Part shown: positions 39,890 through 49,694 of the stretch, piece by piece
Layout: each line of letters opens with the position of its first letter
How positions within the stretch are numbered: the first letter of the stretch is position 1
Assembly (NCBI GenBank): GCA_022565595.1
Contig: JAIUML010000003.1
Coordinates: 186,001 to 250,000 of the forward strand
DNA: 64,000 nt
Direction: 5' to 3'
Origin: Saccharospirillum sp.
GTDB lineage: Bacteria; Pseudomonadota; Gammaproteobacteria; Pseudomonadales; Natronospirillaceae
Position numbers and translations under genes: made by a program
The notes under the pieces: generated by a model
What the model saw: only the letters and a program-made list of their open reading frames with translations
Told to the model about the DNA's origin: nothing
Databases searched by the model: none

Positions 39890-40726
39890 ATGAGCTACAC
39901 ACCGCCCAGAGTCTGGAAGTGGGAAGCTGAAAGCGGAGGCCAGTTTGCCAGCATCAATCGTCCGATCGCCGGTGCCACCCATGAAAAAGATTTACCCTTA
40001 GGCCAGCACCCCATGCAACTCTATTCGCTGGCCACGCCCAATGGCATCAAGGTAACGGTGATGTTTGAGGAATTATTGGCGCTCGGCCACAAGGGCGCTG
40101 AATACGATGCCTGGCTGATTCGCATAACCGAAGGCGATCAATTTGGCAGCGGCTTTGTCGCAGCCAACCCCAACAGCAAGATCCCGGCCCTGGTGGATCA
40201 CAGTGGTGAGCAACCGACACGGGTATTCGAATCCGGTTCTATACTGCTGTACTTGGCGGAGAAGTTCGGTGCGTTTTTACCGACAGAGCATCAACAACGT
40301 ACCGAAGCCCTGAACTGGCTGTTCTGGCAGATGGGCAGCGCCCCCTACCTGGGCGGTGGGTTTGGCCATTTCTATGCCTATGCCCCAACCAAGCAGCAAT
40401 ACCCCATTGACCGCTTTACCATGGAAGTGAAACGCCAGCTGGATGTGCTGGACCGTCACCTTGCAGAGCAACCCTATATGGCTGGTGAAGCCTACAGCAT
40501 AGCCGATATCGCCATCTGGCCATGGTATGGACGTCTGGCGCAAGGGCATCAGTACAATGCGGGTGAGTTTCTGGAGGTGGAGACTTACCGGCATCTAATC
40601 GATTGGGCCAATCGCATCGGCGAGCGCCCTGCCGTGAAGCGCGGGCAGGTGGTCAATGCCACCTGGGGGGAGTGCCAGTTGCCCGAACGTCATTCGGCTG
40701 AAGATCTGGACAAACTGGGGCTCTAA
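39890..40726 (+). CDS. yghU: Glutathione S-transferase family protein, YghU-like
   Basis: A 278-residue GST-fold protein of the Nu-class/YghU type. It has the long N-terminal lead (VWKWEAESGGQFASINRP), a thioredoxin-like domain with ANPNSKIPALVD and FESGSILLYLAEKFG, and the helical C-terminal domain with SIADIAIWPWYG. E. coli YghU binds two glutathiones and reduces disulfides and peroxides. GGAG precedes the ATG. It converges on the EamA gene. Confidence 0.92.
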   Translation: MSYTPPRVWKWEAESGGQFASINRPIAGATHEKDLPLGQHPMQLYSLATPNGIKVTVMFEELLALGHKGAEYDAWLIRITEGDQFGSGFVAANPNSKIPALVDHSGEQPTRVFESGSILLYLAEKFGAFLPTEHQQRTEALNWLFWQMGSAPYLGGGFGHFYAYAPTKQQYPIDRFTMEVKRQLDVLDRHLAEQPYMAGEAYSIADIAIWPWYGRLAQGHQYNAGEFLEVETYRHLIDWANRIGERPAVKRGQVVNATWGECQLPERHSAEDLDKLGL

Positions 40727-41796: not shown

Positions 41797-43764
41797 TTAT
41801 TCTGCTGTTTTGGTCTGCGCTGTGGCTGTAGGGAAGTTGTGAACACAGTCGCGGCCACTTTGCTTGGCTTTATAGAGTGCGGTATCCCCCCAGAAAATCA
41901 GCGTTTCAAGGTCGCTCTTGCCATCCCAGTTTGAGACGCCAAAGCTGGCCGTTATTCGAATGGTTTTGTCCTTGCAAGGTATCTCTAATGAGCGAATTTT
42001 ACAGCGTATGCGTTCTGCTATTTCAGTTGCAGTTTGCCCGTCGATACCCGGCAGTAAAATCAAGAACTCTTCACCGCCAATACGCCCAAACAGATCCATG
42101 GGCCGTATCATTTCTTTGGTGGGTGCTATAATGGAGCGTAACACTTCATCCCCACCTTCATGGCCGTAGCGGTCATTCACCTCCTTGAAATGATCCAGAT
42201 CAAAAATAATCAGCGATACCGTTCCGCGCTCACCTTTTTGCCGCTTGAGTTCACGTCGTGCTGTTTCAAAAAAATGTCGACGATTGGCGATGCCGGTCAA
42301 ATAGTCCTGCGAGGCCAGGGTCGTCAGTTTCTTGTTGGCTGCTTGCAAGGCCTCGTTGGATGTCTGCAGTGAATGGGTTCGCTCCAGTACTTTGGCTTCC
42401 AGGATTTCGTTCTGCTGCTCAAGCACGTGACGTGTTTTCCGAAGTGCTTCTTCCTGGGCTTTTTCTTCAGTAAGGTCATGCTGTATACCGACGTAATGAG
42501 TTACCTTACCAGAGCGATTGTGGACTGGAGCAAGGGAGAGTTGTATCCAAAGCGGCCGGCCATCGCGACGATAGTTGCGTACCGTAACTGCACATGCTTT
42601 GCGTTGTTGTAATGCTGCTCTGATGGTTTTAACGGCATCCTGATCCTTGTCGTCACCTTGCAGAAAACGGCAATTGCGGCCGATGACTTCCTCTGCCGAG
42701 TAACCGAACAAGGATTCGAACTTCGGGTTGACCCATACCAGAGGCATGTCCTCCTTGCTGGCATCAGCAATGGCTATAGCATCGTTGCTGTCCTGCATGG
42801 CGCGATACTGCAAATGCAGTGTATTTCGCTGCTGGCGATTCTCGTGTAAAAAAATGGCCAGGCCGACCGAGAGCATCGAGACGATGGTGAGGTATTCCTG
42901 CATTTGCCAGACGGCGAAGTGAGGGGCCGACTCGGCATAGGGGTGTGGGCCATGAACCAGGTAATTGACGGCCAGTAATGAGATAACTAAGACGGTAGAG
43001 GCCGCCCCCAGCACACCAAAGCGAAAAGCCGCCCAAAGGCCCAAAGGAATCATCATGGCCGGTGTCAGGTGGAATACCTCCAGGGTGTGTTCAACAGCAA
43101 CGAATACCCAGGTACCGAGCAGAAACACGGTGCTCCAGAGTGCTGCAAACTCCAGAAGTCTGGGCCAGCTCCAACCCGGCCCGGAAAAACCATTCATTGA
43201 CTCTCGGCCGAGTCGGACCAGTAATGGGGTCAGTAACAGCAGCCCGAGTGCGTCACCAAACCACCAGAGCCGCCAAAGTGATGGGAAAGTCGAACCTGAA
43301 CGGTCGAGAAAGAGATATACAGTGGCACCAAAGACCGCTGCGATGGCGGCTGCCAGAATGGGTCCGAACAGCAAAAAACGGCTGGCCCTTCTGAGGTTGG
43401 TAAAATCAAAGGGCTCATTCAAGCCACGGCGGATCAGTGTCGCCGCCAGCAAGGTTTCAAAGGCATTGATCAATCCGAAACTGATGGTTGCCCAGAGTGG
43501 AAAGCTGGGTAAGCCGGCAATAATTTCCGCTGTAAAGGCAGCAGTCAGAATGTATGGCCAGAGTTTTGGTGTGGAGAGCAAAAGAGCCGAGAGCAGAATG
43601 GCGTTCGGTGGCCACAGAATGGCGATGCCTTCGTTGGCGATGGTTTGGCTAATACCAAACCAGGCGCTAATGTAGTAGGCAAACCCGACGGTCACCATCA
43701 GGACAAAGCGATGTGTTACTATTTTTGCCTGTTGTCGGTAAGCACTTTCAGAGTATTCGGCCAT
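41797..43764 (-). CDS. MASE1-LOV-GGDEF diguanylate cyclase
   Basis: A 655-residue membrane sensor. Residues ~15-305 form a MASE1 domain of about eight helices. Residues ~325-432 are a PAS domain of LOV type: GRNCRFLQG with the flavin-adduct Cys365, NYRRDG with Asn397 and the flipping Gln428 in YVGIQHD. A second FMN-contact Asn after the Trp (expected FWN) is Ile407 here. The GGEEF active site is at 563-567, preceded by an RPMD product-inhibition site at 554-557. It should make cyclic di-GMP, perhaps in response to blue light. The start at 43764 is the second in-frame ATG; one at 43815 is possible. Confidence 0.88.
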   Translation of the reverse strand: MAEYSESAYRQQAKIVTHRFVLMVTVGFAYYISAWFGISQTIANEGIAILWPPNAILLSALLLSTPKLWPYILTAAFTAEIIAGLPSFPLWATISFGLINAFETLLAATLIRRGLNEPFDFTNLRRASRFLLFGPILAAAIAAVFGATVYLFLDRSGSTFPSLWRLWWFGDALGLLLLTPLLVRLGRESMNGFSGPGWSWPRLLEFAALWSTVFLLGTWVFVAVEHTLEVFHLTPAMMIPLGLWAAFRFGVLGAASTVLVISLLAVNYLVHGPHPYAESAPHFAVWQMQEYLTIVSMLSVGLAIFLHENRQQRNTLHLQYRAMQDSNDAIAIADASKEDMPLVWVNPKFESLFGYSAEEVIGRNCRFLQGDDKDQDAVKTIRAALQQRKACAVTVRNYRRDGRPLWIQLSLAPVHNRSGKVTHYVGIQHDLTEEKAQEEALRKTRHVLEQQNEILEAKVLERTHSLQTSNEALQAANKKLTTLASQDYLTGIANRRHFFETARRELKRQKGERGTVSLIIFDLDHFKEVNDRYGHEGGDEVLRSIIAPTKEMIRPMDLFGRIGGEEFLILLPGIDGQTATEIAERIRCKIRSLEIPCKDKTIRITASFGVSNWDGKSDLETLIFWGDTALYKAKQSGRDCVHNFPTATAQTKTAE

Positions 43765-44055
43765 AGGCGATTCTCTGTTAGGTCGGAGTAAACCGACAGG
43801 TAACAAGATGAGCATTTTGCTCTTGTAGAATAGTCGCCGACCGGGAGTGCTCCATGCGCAAAAATAACAGTGACAGAGCTTTATATTTGGCCCACCAACT
43901 GAAAGCGGCTATTGTTATTATGTCTCTTGAGCCTCAGTGGGCCCGCAATTCAGTAGAGCACCTTAGCTTATGAGTTTGAAGGAGTAACTTCTACCAAACT
44001 ACGAATTATTTTTTTCTTCCGGGGTAAACCGATATCGAAGTAGATTTATCCCGGC

Positions 44056-44104: not shown

Positions 44105-46543
44105 ATGCGATTTTTCGTCATCTTTTTTTTCATGCTGACTGCAACAATTGCAGCGCTGGCTGATGGGCAGGGTTTCAAGCGATATTATGAGCAAAACGAG
44201 TTTTTGTTGACATCGCCGGGCGCACTCAAGTTTGGGCTATACGGTTACGATAATCCAGCCGGTCTGCATCATGTTCAGCAGGTCGATGCATTGCTTTACT
44301 GGACCAGTGATCACTTCTGGTATGATCAACAGCGTTGGCAAGGGAGTCTAGCTGTTCCCGGGTTCAGCTTTAGCCTCGGCCGAGATCAACGTGGAGGCCA
44401 GGATATTCGAGATTACAACCTGGCTTTTGGCGGTGGTACTGATGCATTTTCCAGTGGCTTTTCAGTTGGCTGGTATCGTGGTGATACAGAGCAGGCTGAC
44501 CTTCAAACGCACTTTACTCTGGGGTTATTGAGTCGGCCCAATAAATACCTATCTGTTGGTTTTACTGGCACAGTTGCCAGAGACACTGCCTATCATGAAG
44601 CGGTGCTCGATGTCGCCTTGCGCCCTCTGGGTGGCGCCGGGCTGACGCTCTTTGCCGACTATGCTCTTGGCAATGACGAGTCCTGGACTGAGGGGCGGTG
44701 GTCTGTGGGTGCTGCATCCGAAGTGGTTTCTGGTTTACGGTTGACCGGGCGCTATTTCGACGATGGACTGGTCACCGCCGGTCTGCAGTTGAGTTTTGGG
44801 CACAGTGGCTTCAGTGCGCAGCGTCATGGCGGTGGTGAGTCAGATGCGGACTATCAATCCTACAGTGTTCGTGTGGGCGCCTGGGATAGGCCACTCTTTG
44901 GCGGTTTCGAAAGCAGCCAGGAGCAGTTCATGTTGCTGGAGCTTGATCAGGAAATGGCCTATCAAAGGGTCGCAATGTTGGACCGACGCCAGTCATTGCT
45001 GGATACCCTGCGTGCCATCAACGCGGCACAGCAGGATCCCACCATTGGCGGTGTTGTGGTGAATACTGCGCAAATGCAAATACCCCCGTCATTGGTCTGG
45101 GAAATCAAATCTGAACTGGACGGTTTGCGCGCCAGTGGCAAAACGGTGGTGGTCTATGTGGAAAACGGTGGCATGTCTGAATTGCTGTTGACCTCGGCTG
45201 CAGATTGGGTGGTGATGGACCCGGCGGGTACCTTGCTGATGCCTGGCTTTGTCTCGGGCAGTACCTACCTGGCCGACTTCCTTGACCATTGGGGCATCGG
45301 CGTCGAGGAGTTCCGCAATCTCGAATTCAAGACCGCTTTTGAAAGCTTATCGCGCGATCGCATGTCGGAGCCGGACAGACAGCAACGTCAGGCCATGATC
45401 GACAGCTTTTACGATTTGTGGCAAAGCGCCCTGCAGCAGGGGCGCGGTGTGTCACCAACCACCTTTGGCCAACTGATTGATCGCGGTATTACCTTGACAC
45501 CAGAAGACCTGGTGGCCGCAGGCATCGTAAATGACTTGGCTCGCTTTAATGAGCTTGATGATGCACTCGAGCGACAGCTTGGCTTTGTTCCGGACCAGGT
45601 ATCGCCAGACTCCTTGCGCGTGCTGCGAACGCCGCGTGACGACCATTGGGGCCCGACTCAGACTATCGCGGTTATTTACGCGACCGGGATGACCGCCACC
45701 GATACAGGCATGCGCACGCGCCAGCTCGCCGACATAGTGGAGCAGATGCGAGACGACCCTGACATCAAGGCGGTAGTGCTGCGCGTCGACTCCCCTGGCG
45801 GTGGTATTCTGGCTTCCGACCTCCTGGCTCAGGAAATTCGTAAAACCCAGGCGGAGAAACCGGTCGTGGTGTCCATGGGCAGCCTGGCCACTTCCGGTGG
45901 CTACTGGGTGTCCATGCACGCCGGGACTCTGGTTGCCGCGCCAAACAGCGTCACCGGCAGCATTGGTGTTATCGGCGTACGACTCTGGGACGATGGACTG
46001 GGCGAGCGATTGCGCGTCAACAGCGATTTCGTCAAGCGCGGTGAGTCGGCCGACATCGGTTTTGGTATAGGGCTGCCAGTGGCTGGTGGGTCATTACCTC
46101 ATCGCGCCTTGACCGATGGTGAACTGCAACGCATACAGCAGCGCCTCGATGGCTGGTATGACGACTTTGTCTCCCAGGCGGCGCAAGCACGGGGTATTCC
46201 TGAGGTGGAGTTGCGTGAATTGGCAGCAGGCCGCGTCTATAGCGGGCTCGATGCGGTGCAGCTTGGTCTGGTGGATGAGTTGGGCAGCCTGACCCTGGCC
46301 ATTGATATGGCCGCAGCCCAGGCGGGCCTGACCGCAGCAGACAAGATTCGCGTGGTAGAAAGCCCTCGGCCGAGCCTGTCTTCCTGGCGCGATCTACGCT
46401 ATCTGATCGATCTCGAAGGCAGTGCGTCCGGTCTGTTTGACCCACGGCTGTATCGGCAGGACTACCTGGAGTTTCTGGTGAATCAGCGAGGGCAGCCGAT
46501 GGTTCTGCTGCCCTTTGAGTACTTCGAGGGCACTCTACAGTAA
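44105..46543 (+). CDS. Predicted beta-barrel fused to SppA-type S49 peptidase
   Basis: An 812-residue secreted protein. After a signal peptide (about 1-19), residues ~25-260 are a run of amphipathic strands rich in Gly, Tyr and Phe, as in outer-membrane barrels. Residues ~270-800 are a tandem SppA (S49) peptidase with the catalytic Lys409 in NLEFKTAFESL and nucleophile Ser597 in MGSLATSGGYW; RVDSPGGGILASD precedes it. E. coli SppA, which cuts leftover signal peptides, has a membrane helix where the barrel is here. AAGGAAT precedes the ATG. The barrel is a prediction, but the peptidase call is firm. Confidence 0.85.
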   Translation: MRFFVIFFFMLTATIAALADGQGFKRYYEQNEFLLTSPGALKFGLYGYDNPAGLHHVQQVDALLYWTSDHFWYDQQRWQGSLAVPGFSFSLGRDQRGGQDIRDYNLAFGGGTDAFSSGFSVGWYRGDTEQADLQTHFTLGLLSRPNKYLSVGFTGTVARDTAYHEAVLDVALRPLGGAGLTLFADYALGNDESWTEGRWSVGAASEVVSGLRLTGRYFDDGLVTAGLQLSFGHSGFSAQRHGGGESDADYQSYSVRVGAWDRPLFGGFESSQEQFMLLELDQEMAYQRVAMLDRRQSLLDTLRAINAAQQDPTIGGVVVNTAQMQIPPSLVWEIKSELDGLRASGKTVVVYVENGGMSELLLTSAADWVVMDPAGTLLMPGFVSGSTYLADFLDHWGIGVEEFRNLEFKTAFESLSRDRMSEPDRQQRQAMIDSFYDLWQSALQQGRGVSPTTFGQLIDRGITLTPEDLVAAGIVNDLARFNELDDALERQLGFVPDQVSPDSLRVLRTPRDDHWGPTQTIAVIYATGMTATDTGMRTRQLADIVEQMRDDPDIKAVVLRVDSPGGGILASDLLAQEIRKTQAEKPVVVSMGSLATSGGYWVSMHAGTLVAAPNSVTGSIGVIGVRLWDDGLGERLRVNSDFVKRGESADIGFGIGLPVAGGSLPHRALTDGELQRIQQRLDGWYDDFVSQAAQARGIPEVELRELAAGRVYSGLDAVQLGLVDELGSLTLAIDMAAAQAGLTAADKIRVVESPRPSLSSWRDLRYLIDLEGSASGLFDPRLYRQDYLEFLVNQRGQPMVLLPFEYFEGTLQ

Positions 46544-46553
46544 CTGATATGAC

Positions 46554-49500
46554 TCATGAGCCGGATTGTTCGGCCTTCTGATCGGATTTCCGCCCCAACA
46601 ACCAGCCGAAGAAGCGATGGCTGTTATCGCCCATGCTTTGGACGTAGCTGAGCACACAAGGCACGATCAGCAACACCAGAACAGAACCATAGGCCAACCC
46701 GAACGCCAGGGAGGTAGCCATACTGCGCACCAGTTGGGCCTGGACGGAGCTTTCCAACAGAATGGGTACCAGGCCCGCAACGGTGGTCATGGTGGTCAGT
46801 ACTACAGGCCGGAAGCGTTGGCAGCACGCTTCAACAATGGCCTCGTGGCGCTCGTAGCCTTCATCCAGCATTTCCCGGTATCGAACAATCAGCACGATAG
46901 ATCCATTGATCACGATACCGGCCAGGCCAAACAGGCCGAAAATGGACAGGAAGGTAAAATCCAGCCCCATGATCCAGTGGCCGGTAATGGCGCCGGTCAT
47001 CGCCAGCGGAATGGACAGCATGACCGCCAGCGGCCAGGAGTAGGACTGGAATATCCAGGCGAGAATCAGAAAGATCAGCGCAGCAGCAATCCAGCCGGCG
47101 AAGATCAAGTTTTCGAGCAACTCGCCTGCATCCTGGCCGGTTTCGTACTCAGCCACCAGACCATAGTGTGACAAAAGGGCCGGCATGATGGTGCTTTGAA
47201 TGTCGGACTGAATGGCCTGGCTGTTGGCATCCTCACTGATCGGATCGGCTGTTACTGTGACCGATTGTTGCCCGTTGACCCGATAGATGGTGCTCAATTC
47301 CTCGCGTTCCTCAAAGGTGGCCAGGTCCTGAAGGGGTACCTGCTGACCATTGGGTAGATTGATCGGCCACCAACGAACCAGATCCAGGCGGTTGCGGCTG
47401 GTTTCATCGAGACGCAAGCGCACATCCACTTCCTCGCCAAAGCGCGTAAATGACTGCACCAGAACACCATCGACGGCGGTACTCAACTGATACGCCAACT
47501 CGCGTTCCGAGACACCCAGGCTGCGCGCTGCGGGGGTCAGGCTAAGCACCAGTTGACGGTTGGTGTCAGGCAAGCTGTCATCGATGTTGCGCAAGTCACC
47601 GCGTTGCTCCAGAGCGTCCTTGAGGGCGAGGGTAGCGGCCTGGAGGCGGTCACCGTCGTCGCCCACCAGGCGCAAGTTGAGTTGGCTTGCGCTGGAGCCT
47701 CCGCCACTTTCACTCTGAATGCGTAAACGCTCTACGGTCATTGGCCGCTCTACCAGAGACTCCCAATAGCTGAGAAACTCCGTATTGGAAAACGCTCGAT
47801 CGTCGCGTGCCGGCAATCGCGCCATGAAGAACGCATATCGGCTATTGAGATCATATTCGTAGTAGAGGTCGAGTAGCACCTGGCTGCCGTGATCCTGACT
47901 GAAGTGTGTATCGGTCAGTGCCAACTGGTCTTTGAGGTGATTCACAAAGGCCAGAATGTCGGCTTCGGAGGTGCCTTCGATGAACCTTGCTTCGGCCTGA
48001 ACCCGGTCGTCTTCAACTTCCAGATCCTCTGAAAAGGTCACGATGTCACTGGTGACCAGGCCAATGGCCAGGATGAACAAGGCAATGGCCGTCATCAGGG
48101 TGAACAGGCGCTGTCGAATCAGCACCTTGATCAGAGGGCGATAAATGCCCTCGCGCACCCAGGTCAGGCGTTGGTCAATGGCCTGACGCACACGACTCGG
48201 CTTCTGCTCGCGCCGACGCGCCAGGCTGTGGTGCAAGTGGCCCGGTAGAATCAAAAAACATTCGATCAACGACGCCACGATCACCGAGATAATCACGACC
48301 GGTATGGGTCGCAGTAATTCACCAAAAATGCCCGGCACAAACAACAGCGGTGAAAAGGCCGCTATGGTGGTCAGAGAAGAGGCCAATACGGGCGGGAACA
48401 TGTGGGTGGCAGCGATGCCAGCCGCCTTGTCGTGCGGCACGCCTTGTTCGACCAGGGTCTGGCTTTCTTCGCCGACAACAATAGCGTCGTCGACGATGAT
48501 GCCGAGCGCCATCAACATGGCAAAGATGGAAAAGAAATTCAGGCTACCACCGGTAAAGTACAGCAGCGTCATGGTGCCGAAAATAGCCACCGGTATGCCC
48601 ATGGCTGTCCAGAAGGCTACCCGCAAGTTCAGAAAGACGAACAGCATGACCAGCACAAATACCAGACCAAAGAGGCCGTTACTGATCAGCAGGTTGAGGT
48701 TGTCACGGACAAACTCGGACGTATCGTAAAAGACTTCCACACCCAGGCTTTCCGGCAGCGTTGGTACGACCTCTTCCTGCCAGGCCTTGAACAGATCGGA
48801 AGTGGCCAAAGAGTCCAGCGATGCCGAGCGCGACAACTGCAACATGATGGCTGGCTTGCCGTCGAAGAACAGCCGCAGGTTGGGGTCATCCCCAGCACTG
48901 CGTATGTGCACCACATCACCCAAGCGAAGGTTGTCTGCGATGGGCAATTGAGCGAGCTCTGCCGCAGAGATAACCTGCTCCCCAGTGGTCAGGTTGCGTC
49001 GCTGGCTTTGCTCCCCGGTACTGCCGGCGGCGTACCGGTCATTCACTGAGCGGATGCGTTGTGCCAGGGCGTCGAGTGTCCACTGATGATGAGCCAGTTT
49101 TTCAGGTGTCACTTCCAGATAAAGCGCCTGCTCGGCCAGGCCGTAAAGGGTGATTTCTGGAATACCGCGCCGTTTCAGATCGCGCTCCAGTTCGTACGCC
49201 AGGGGGCGTAAATCCTCCAGCAGGCCATCGTAGGTCAGCACCAGAAAGACCACCGGCTCGGAGAAGCTGTATTCCCGAATAACCGGTTCATCCGCCTCGG
49301 CCGGCAGGCTGACACCGTCGACGGTTTTGCGCAGATCAGTCATGGCTCGGTCGAAGTCAGCTCCAGCTCGAAAATAGACGCTGATGCCAGTGCCGCCATC
49401 GCGACTGTTCGAGGTGATTCGATCAACCACGTCGAGATCCAGAATGGCGGTTTCCAGTGGGTTGGTCAGGCGGTCGAGCACGGCCTCTGCACCGGCGGCC

Positions 49501-49694
49501 TGCCAACTGACCGATACCCCGGCGGCCCCCGGGTTGACGTCTGGAAAGATTTGAGTGTTGAGCCGACCCATGGACAGCACACCCAAAAGGATGACAAACA
49601 CCATCATCAGGTTGGCGGCGACTCGGTGTCGAGCAAAGTAGGCGAGCAGCGCATAGGCCCTGGCCGGCTGACGAAAAGTGGTGGTGTCGTTCAT
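46554..49694 (-). CDS. RND efflux permease, AcrB-like
   Basis: A 1046-residue inner-membrane HAE-type RND pump with twelve predicted helices and two large periplasmic loops. The helix-4 acidic pair appears as MALGIIVDDAIVVGEE, and the conserved FLFGLAGIVINGSIVLIV lies in the second half. The N-terminus has the family PDVNPG motif (TQIFPDVNPGAAGVSVSW). It begins 4 bp inside the adaptor gene, so the two are co-translated. No outer-membrane TolC-type gene adjoins. Substrate unknown; many such pumps move antibiotics, dyes or bile-like compounds. Confidence 0.92.
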   Translation of the reverse strand: MNDTTTFRQPARAYALLAYFARHRVAANLMMVFVILLGVLSMGRLNTQIFPDVNPGAAGVSVSWQAAGAEAVLDRLTNPLETAILDLDVVDRITSNSRDGGTGISVYFRAGADFDRAMTDLRKTVDGVSLPAEADEPVIREYSFSEPVVFLVLTYDGLLEDLRPLAYELERDLKRRGIPEITLYGLAEQALYLEVTPEKLAHHQWTLDALAQRIRSVNDRYAAGSTGEQSQRRNLTTGEQVISAAELAQLPIADNLRLGDVVHIRSAGDDPNLRLFFDGKPAIMLQLSRSASLDSLATSDLFKAWQEEVVPTLPESLGVEVFYDTSEFVRDNLNLLISNGLFGLVFVLVMLFVFLNLRVAFWTAMGIPVAIFGTMTLLYFTGGSLNFFSIFAMLMALGIIVDDAIVVGEESQTLVEQGVPHDKAAGIAATHMFPPVLASSLTTIAAFSPLLFVPGIFGELLRPIPVVIISVIVASLIECFLILPGHLHHSLARRREQKPSRVRQAIDQRLTWVREGIYRPLIKVLIRQRLFTLMTAIALFILAIGLVTSDIVTFSEDLEVEDDRVQAEARFIEGTSEADILAFVNHLKDQLALTDTHFSQDHGSQVLLDLYYEYDLNSRYAFFMARLPARDDRAFSNTEFLSYWESLVERPMTVERLRIQSESGGGSSASQLNLRLVGDDGDRLQAATLALKDALEQRGDLRNIDDSLPDTNRQLVLSLTPAARSLGVSERELAYQLSTAVDGVLVQSFTRFGEEVDVRLRLDETSRNRLDLVRWWPINLPNGQQVPLQDLATFEEREELSTIYRVNGQQSVTVTADPISEDANSQAIQSDIQSTIMPALLSHYGLVAEYETGQDAGELLENLIFAGWIAAALIFLILAWIFQSYSWPLAVMLSIPLAMTGAITGHWIMGLDFTFLSIFGLFGLAGIVINGSIVLIVRYREMLDEGYERHEAIVEACCQRFRPVVLTTMTTVAGLVPILLESSVQAQLVRSMATSLAFGLAYGSVLVLLIVPCVLSYVQSMGDNSHRFFGWLLGRKSDQKAEQSGS

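Follow-up and report, generated by a model that had tools for sequence, protein, structure and literature searches.

A SppA-type protease fused to a predicted, probably FadL-like outer-membrane barrel in Saccharospirillum

The fusion gene, its surroundings and its export signal

The window, i.e. the whole stretch of 64,000 nucleotides analyzed, carries on its + strand an open reading frame at 44105-46543 that starts with ATG and comprises 812 codons, at exactly the coordinates of the original prediction. From the frame itself and its Pfam and TIGR00705 matches, the entire 812-amino-acid product reads as a barrel-SppA fusion, and all its parts lie on the + strand. A predicted Sec signal peptide (residues 1-19, 44105-44161) is followed by an N-terminal plug or tail ahead of strand 1 (residues 20-60, 44162-44284; delimited by the model and by conservation), which contains a FadL-type NPA motif (N50-P51-A52, 44252-44260). 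Fourteen predicted transmembrane β-strands (residues 61-258, 44285-44878; from the full-length and the domain model) and a low-confidence linker (residues 259-287, 44879-44965; from the full-length model and the alignment) lead to the SppA part. This part consists of two S49 halves, the N-terminal one contributing the lysine (residues 288-515, 44966-45649; Lys409 codon at 45329-45331) and the C-terminal one the nucleophile (residues 516-750, 45650-46354; Ser597 codon, within SGGYW, at 45893-45895). The protein closes with a C-tail (residues 755-812, 46367-46540) whose end motif, read by eye, is P-[LM]-x-x-[LM]-P, here QPMVLLPFEY. The motif was seen by eye in all seven fusions with a full C-terminus printed (the window's, L065-L069 and L071), and a pattern search found a similar string in one of 59 ordinary SppA proteins.

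The upstream neighbor is a MASE1-PAS-GGDEF gene (41797-43815, - strand), divergent from the fusion gene, and the downstream neighbor is an RND pump gene (46554-49694, - strand), convergent with it. Since both adjoining genes are on the - strand, the fusion gene stands alone. Within it, third-position GC was 0.50 in codons 1-260 (barrel) and 0.66 in codons 285-760 (SppA), a split which could reflect selection on the barrel codons or a mosaic history.

A signal peptide and a barrel had been proposed to replace the usual SppA anchor, and hydropathy agreed with this proposal. Residues ~1-19 resemble a Sec signal peptide, with an ALA|DG cleavage site read by eye and a maximal 19-residue hydropathy of 2.1. 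When ten fusion rows were read by eye, an AxA preceded the conserved tail in four of the five same-family rows, that of the window included. The window protein has no cysteine and therefore no lipobox. After residue 25, its 19-residue hydropathy never exceeded 1.36; in place of the N-terminal transmembrane anchor that characterizes SppA_67K, hydropathy revealed a signal-peptide-like segment only. Later 19-residue stretches stayed at or below 1.74 in all 32 of the 36 fusions that were scored, the other four having no match to the NPA pattern. For 59 ordinary SppA proteins, the mean hydropathy within the first 140 residues was 2.70, but the lowest value was 0.85, so that the contrast with the fusions is a tendency and not an absolute rule.

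The N-terminal barrel domain

The claim of a barrel was borne out by structure prediction of the N-terminal region, which gave a fold matching outer-membrane barrels. Predicted alone, the domain (~240 residues) formed a 14-strand meander with a pLDDT of 75.6 and a pTM of 0.76, whereas the full-length model was weak (pLDDT 58.3, pTM 0.43) and the placement of the SppA bowl relative to the barrel is not readable from it; each prediction was made for a monomer and fed by 8 sequences only. We compared the models with known structures using VIA-align, which re-ranks Foldseek's list and is thus not an independent search. The full-length model matched FadL over residues 29-260 (Z 19.6). With the domain model, chains of the FadL family came first, with Z of 19-23 and rmsd of 2.3-2.8 over 219-229 residues: TodX at 23.1 (rmsd 2.3, 226 residues), CymD at 22.8, TbuX at 22.4 and FadL at up to 22.4. 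Two chains of the type 9 secretion system (6h3i_F and 8gl6_F) reached 20.9 each, and BAM chains reached 20.4 (9n2d_B, F. johnsoniae), 19.6 (9hjm_F, P. gingivalis) and 17.9 (9hiv_F, B. thetaiotaomicron). From the entry titles and the corresponding papers, we infer that the former are PorV and the latter BamG. OmpG reached at most 17.8.

Foldseek E-values, by contrast, placed OmpG at the top, followed directly by the invasin and intimin barrels, and the TM-scores to FadL chains were near 0.5. We gave preference to VIA-align because in its list the matches of FadL-type chains take in the plug region as well, beginning at model residues 1-13 against 37-39 for OmpG. This choice is a judgement and, given the Foldseek E-values in favor of OmpG and the FadL TM-scores near 0.5, the family of the barrel is less sure than its nature as an outer-membrane barrel. 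The N-terminal barrel is probably FadL-like.

Two features of the FadL family, a 14-strand outer-membrane barrel (here a predicted one) and an NPA motif in an N-terminal plug, were found. In the aligned fusions, the asparagine was conserved in 34/35, the proline in 35/35 and the alanine in 33/35, and the motif was complete in all four divergent barrel-SppA proteins of the alignment. PDB titles in the structure-match list name N33A, P34A and delta-NPA mutants of FadL; by these titles the motif stands at a like position in the mature protein, ~31 in the fusion and 33 in FadL. For the window's barrel domain, no Pfam or NCBIfam family was returned up to E 10, nine barrel-domain members yielded two chance-level names per library, and the barrel profile matched no sequence in the PDB.

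The reading that we prefer takes this barrel as an anchor that would hold the protease at the outer membrane, on the periplasmic side. The conservation of the domain, however, exceeds what an inert anchor needs. The mean share of the commonest residue was 0.63 in the tail (residues 20-60), its best conserved part, 0.56 in the strands and 0.41 in the loops, and R144, R173, E206, R216 and R256 were invariant in 36 sequences. Together with the FadL-family transporters at the top of the VIA-align list, this conservation would suit a barrel that binds hydrophobic or amphipathic peptides or lipids in FadL manner, via a lateral opening or the lumen, and hands them to the SppA chamber, the whole being a coupled uptake-and-cut device. 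As the domain spans ~240 residues against 360-444 in the FadL and TodX chains, the long loops of the transporters are missing, and we consider such a device possible but rather unlikely.

The order of the two parts raises the question of surface display. In inverse autotransporters of the intimin/invasin type the barrel comes first and the passenger second, which is the order found in the fusion, and barrels of this type rank second and third by Foldseek E-value. Nevertheless, these matches had TM-scores of 0.36-0.40 with rmsd of 10-11, and an even set of 14 strands, with a conserved tail that should fill the lumen as in FadL, leaves no path for a folded part of 550 residues. A protease displayed as a passenger is therefore improbable.

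The weakness of the full-length model and the 8 sequences behind each fold would also be compatible with a soluble or misassigned β-domain, the enzyme then being a free periplasmic SppA. The pTM of the domain, Z values of up to 23 and the NPA motif argue against this, as does the pattern of the strands. Across 36 fusions, strand residues alternated between hydrophobic and polar with a mean difference of 2.38, compared to 1.26 (sd 0.26) for shuffled strands and 1.44 for the SppA-core strands, and none of 2000 shuffles was as strong; since the strand borders came from models and the hydrophobicity scale had raised Trp and Tyr values, this test is not fully independent. We regard a free periplasmic enzyme as slightly less probable still than a displayed one. 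The outer-membrane anchor thus remains our preferred reading of the barrel.

The SppA core and the distribution of the fusion

A SppA-type peptidase core that keeps Lys409 and Ser597 had been predicted from the window, and both points were confirmed. PF01343 scored 170.2 bits against a gathering score of 24.9, in two matched stretches, which places the protein among the S49 peptidases. TIGR00705 (SppA_67K) matched residues 292-750 at 254.5 bits, below its equivalog cut-off of 311.45, and E. coli SppA (3bez) aligned to residues 295-740 with an E-value of 9.1e-45. According to these two matches, the S49 domains stand in tandem with the lysine in the first and the serine in the second, as in SppA_67K. 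Lys409 and Ser597 align with the YKSA and ASGGYW stretches of the E. coli enzyme, which presumably contain its Lys209 and Ser409. In addition, the SppA part of the full-length model matched SppA in VIA-align with a Z of 25.6 over 393 residues at 30% identity.

To examine the catalytic residues, we aligned 35 fusions besides the window's with 4 divergent barrel-SppA and 59 ordinary SppA proteins, without same-gene duplicates (L006, L077-L083, L085) and without the later loci L120-L128 and L156-L165. The lysine and the serine were each invariant in 35/35, 4/4 and 59/59 of these sequences, and in the fusion alignment no compared region was better conserved than the catalytic half (0.655). Such conservation makes it very unlikely that the protein is an inactive relative serving as a scaffold, a reading for which nothing speaks except the TIGR00705 score below cut-off.

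Besides the fusion, the window's genome encodes SohB (423 bits, above cut-off) and a short protein with an SppA domain (142 bits, slightly below cut-off). The Balneolales genomes G871 and G872 likewise contain, apart from the fusion, SppA frames that are 602 and 598 aa long. The fusion is thus expected to have an added role and not to replace these enzymes. G872 contains several more S49 frames, one of them of 545 aa with two S49 matches.

Homologues of the same architecture were found both near and far. The N-terminal domain was 61% identical in a same-family genome, and a scan of genome contigs with this domain recovered seven loci, 37-49% identical, in MAGs titled Balneolales, Ignavibacteriae, Ignavibacterium or Bacteroidetes. 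At all seven loci the barrel domain and SppA lie on one ORF, that of L070 being truncated where its contig ends. Of 296 genomes from the phylum to which the Ignavibacterium genome G877 belongs, 26 had the fusion, G877 included, with frames of 803-919 aa; three of the 26 matches were weak (E 1e-6 to 1e-10). In its class, 32 of 100 genomes had the fusion (19 at E 4e-49 or better, 13 weak at 1e-6 to 2e-18), and four further long SppA frames with an N-terminal NPA stretch were missed by the profile. Eight of 100 genomes were positive in the class represented by the Balneolales genome G871. For the family of the window itself the count was 8/22, the window's genome included and one match being weak (E 9.6e-13); within the genus, three other genomes have the fusion and two lack it. 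A single-sequence query matched 2 of 145 genomes in the window's order, the window's own included. In the window's class (369 genomes, E 1e-20) and phylum (398 genomes, E 1e-30), none of the matches listed besides the window's own reached the barrel, in searches whose two-sequence profile could miss divergent barrels. A chance or frame artefact was rejected, since the two-part ORF recurs in 35 aligned relatives. The fusion is real, conserved and recurring and not a one-off; its architecture occurs commonly in the Ignavibacterium class and is found in Balneolales too.

Seven further SppA frames of ~790-890 aa (L107, L108, L109 and L166-L169) have a much diverged N-terminal domain. They keep a signal-peptide-like start and the N-P-A stretch, with similarity to the barrel profile that is weak at most, which points to either fast evolution of the barrel or several origins of the fusion. 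Four other frames, L033 (724 aa), L170 (784 aa), L171 (768 aa) and L172 (845 aa), were not counted as fusions; by eye, a hydrophobic anchor-like stretch precedes their SppA part and nothing barrel-like lies upstream. In viral contigs, 15 stretches matched a pattern and none was a relative. On plasmids, 1421 records matched, none at 80% query coverage among the best 15 of the 1421; the top match, a Nonomuraea sequence, aligns from query residue 243 onward and has no barrel.

We built a tree of the SppA part from 39 rows, with L068 and L070 omitted as near-copies and two Balneolales ordinary SppA proteins as outgroup. The window's family formed a clade of eight including L117 (100/99), which adjoined the Balneolales protein L065 (100/96), and both fell inside a clade of 14 with other rows of the Balneolales class (100/98). 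Against this placement, the letter-composition check was failed by the window's row and several others of its family, and the branches of L117, L108 and L109 are long. In a quick 44-row tree, 31 fusion rows made up a single clade (100) and the neighborhood was unchanged, but the link to L065 had only 86, and the three divergent barrel-SppA rows fell on the side of the 10 ordinary SppA. In a quick tree of the barrel, the window's family again stood next to L065, the root being distorted by the long L117 branch. The nesting of the window's family beside L065 suggests horizontal transfer. The simplest reading would be that the fusion moved once, as a whole, and probably out of a Balneolales-like donor. 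L117 itself, from a same-family genome, is a strongly diverged barrel-SppA (branch of 1.57 on the SppA tree) that has kept the NPA motif, the lysine and the serine.

Gene order was read by eye in 12 stretches, from the first 45 residues per ORF, and no neighbors common across phyla were seen. Three genomes of the window's genus have a glutathione-transferase-like gene near the fusion (window 39890-40726; L129, 4538-5380; L131, 7544-8473, the last by sequence start only), which suggests an old locus in this genus and not a recent insertion. In two Ignavibacterium-type genomes, the fusion is directly preceded by an ABC ATPase gene of opposite orientation (L071, 5067-5804; L135, 2645-3376), whose opening residues appear similar to those of MlaF. 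The genomes G005 and G1176, of the same family and other genera, share a gene pair near the fusion (L118, 2840-4621; L132, 10584-12337; by eye, from sequence starts).

Proposed role and comparison with known systems

Architecture, fold match, conservation and phylogeny are supported by computation. Extending them to location, orientation, activity and substrates, we consider it fairly likely that the fusion is an outer-membrane-anchored, periplasm-facing Ser/Lys protease. Sec would export the protein and its signal peptide would be removed. The BAM machinery would then insert residues 20-258 as a 14-strand barrel of FadL type whose N-terminal plug bears the NPA motif. Such barrels start on the periplasmic side and have an even number of strands, so that a domain following strand 14 should lie in the periplasm; the C-terminal part of the fusion would accordingly stay there. 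Residues 288-750 would form the SppA bowl, which would hang from the outer membrane rather than stand on the inner one, probably as an oligomer like that of E. coli, with Ser597 activated by Lys409. Moving the anchor to the other membrane would keep the compartment the same and change the material that the bowl meets first.

According to PMC9360617, SppA forms a tetramer in the inner membrane and has its Ser-Lys dyad in the periplasm. In B. subtilis, SppA protects against antimicrobial peptides, i.e. lantibiotics and cationic peptides, and its C-terminal domain is self-cleaved (PMC7568657). In F. columnare, deletion of SppA increased outer-membrane vesicles 3.8-fold and stopped gliding (PMC13236525). 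These findings on the B. subtilis and F. columnare enzymes suggest for the fusion a role in clearing peptides and unfolded proteins at the inner face of the outer membrane. Its substrates may be peptides and unfolded segments there, with released signal peptides, failed outer-membrane proteins and incoming amphipathic antimicrobial peptides as candidates, and it would complement the other S49 enzymes of the cell. The C-tail motif could act like the self-cleaved domain of B. subtilis SppA.

A bolder version is speculative. The barrel might be a docking module resembling BamG or PorV, and the fusion a resident protease of the Bacteroidota outer-membrane assembly or export machinery, with the C-tail as a self-cleaved safety catch and the whole unit borrowed by one proteobacterial family; we would give this version a small chance.

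To our knowledge, few proteases are tethered at the periplasmic face of the outer membrane. Among the matches listed in open-licence literature, which omits most subscription journals, there was no description of a barrel-fused SppA. A conserved SppA with its own barrel and intact catalytic residues occurs in many genomes of the Ignavibacterium class, in some Balneolales and in one proteobacterial family. If our reading is true, proteolysis would be placed at the periplasmic face of the outer membrane, whereas SppA is presented as an inner-membrane enzyme (PMC9360617), and FadL-type barrels would gain a use as modules rather than transporters, alongside PorV and BamG.

The fusion is a variant of the S49 proteases and not a new kind. 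Like SppA 67K (protease IV, S49; E. coli 3bez/3bf0), it has two fused S49 domains with the lysine in the first half and the serine in the second, but it lacks the N-terminal transmembrane helix, for which a signal peptide and a barrel stand in; it also carries an extra C-tail motif and misses the TIGR00705 cut-off. The SppA of Flavobacterium columnare (589 aa) is a Bacteroidota SppA, but of the ordinary form. With the FadL family (FadL, TodX, TbuX, CymD), the barrel shares 14 strands (predicted here), an N-terminal plug and the NPA motif, at Z 19-23. In contrast to these proteins, it is shorter (~240 vs 360-444 residues), only 9-17% identical, has no Pfam or NCBIfam match and is attached to a protease. 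FadL-family barrels are reported to thread a long N-terminal tail through the pore (PMC12611786), and PorV, of type 9 secretion, and BamG, of the Bacteroidota BAM, are FadL-family barrels acting as partner proteins (PMC12611786, PMC12578637). Their likeness to the barrel of the fusion is one of fold alone (Z 17.9-20.9), and PorV and BamG are stand-alone subunits without a protease.
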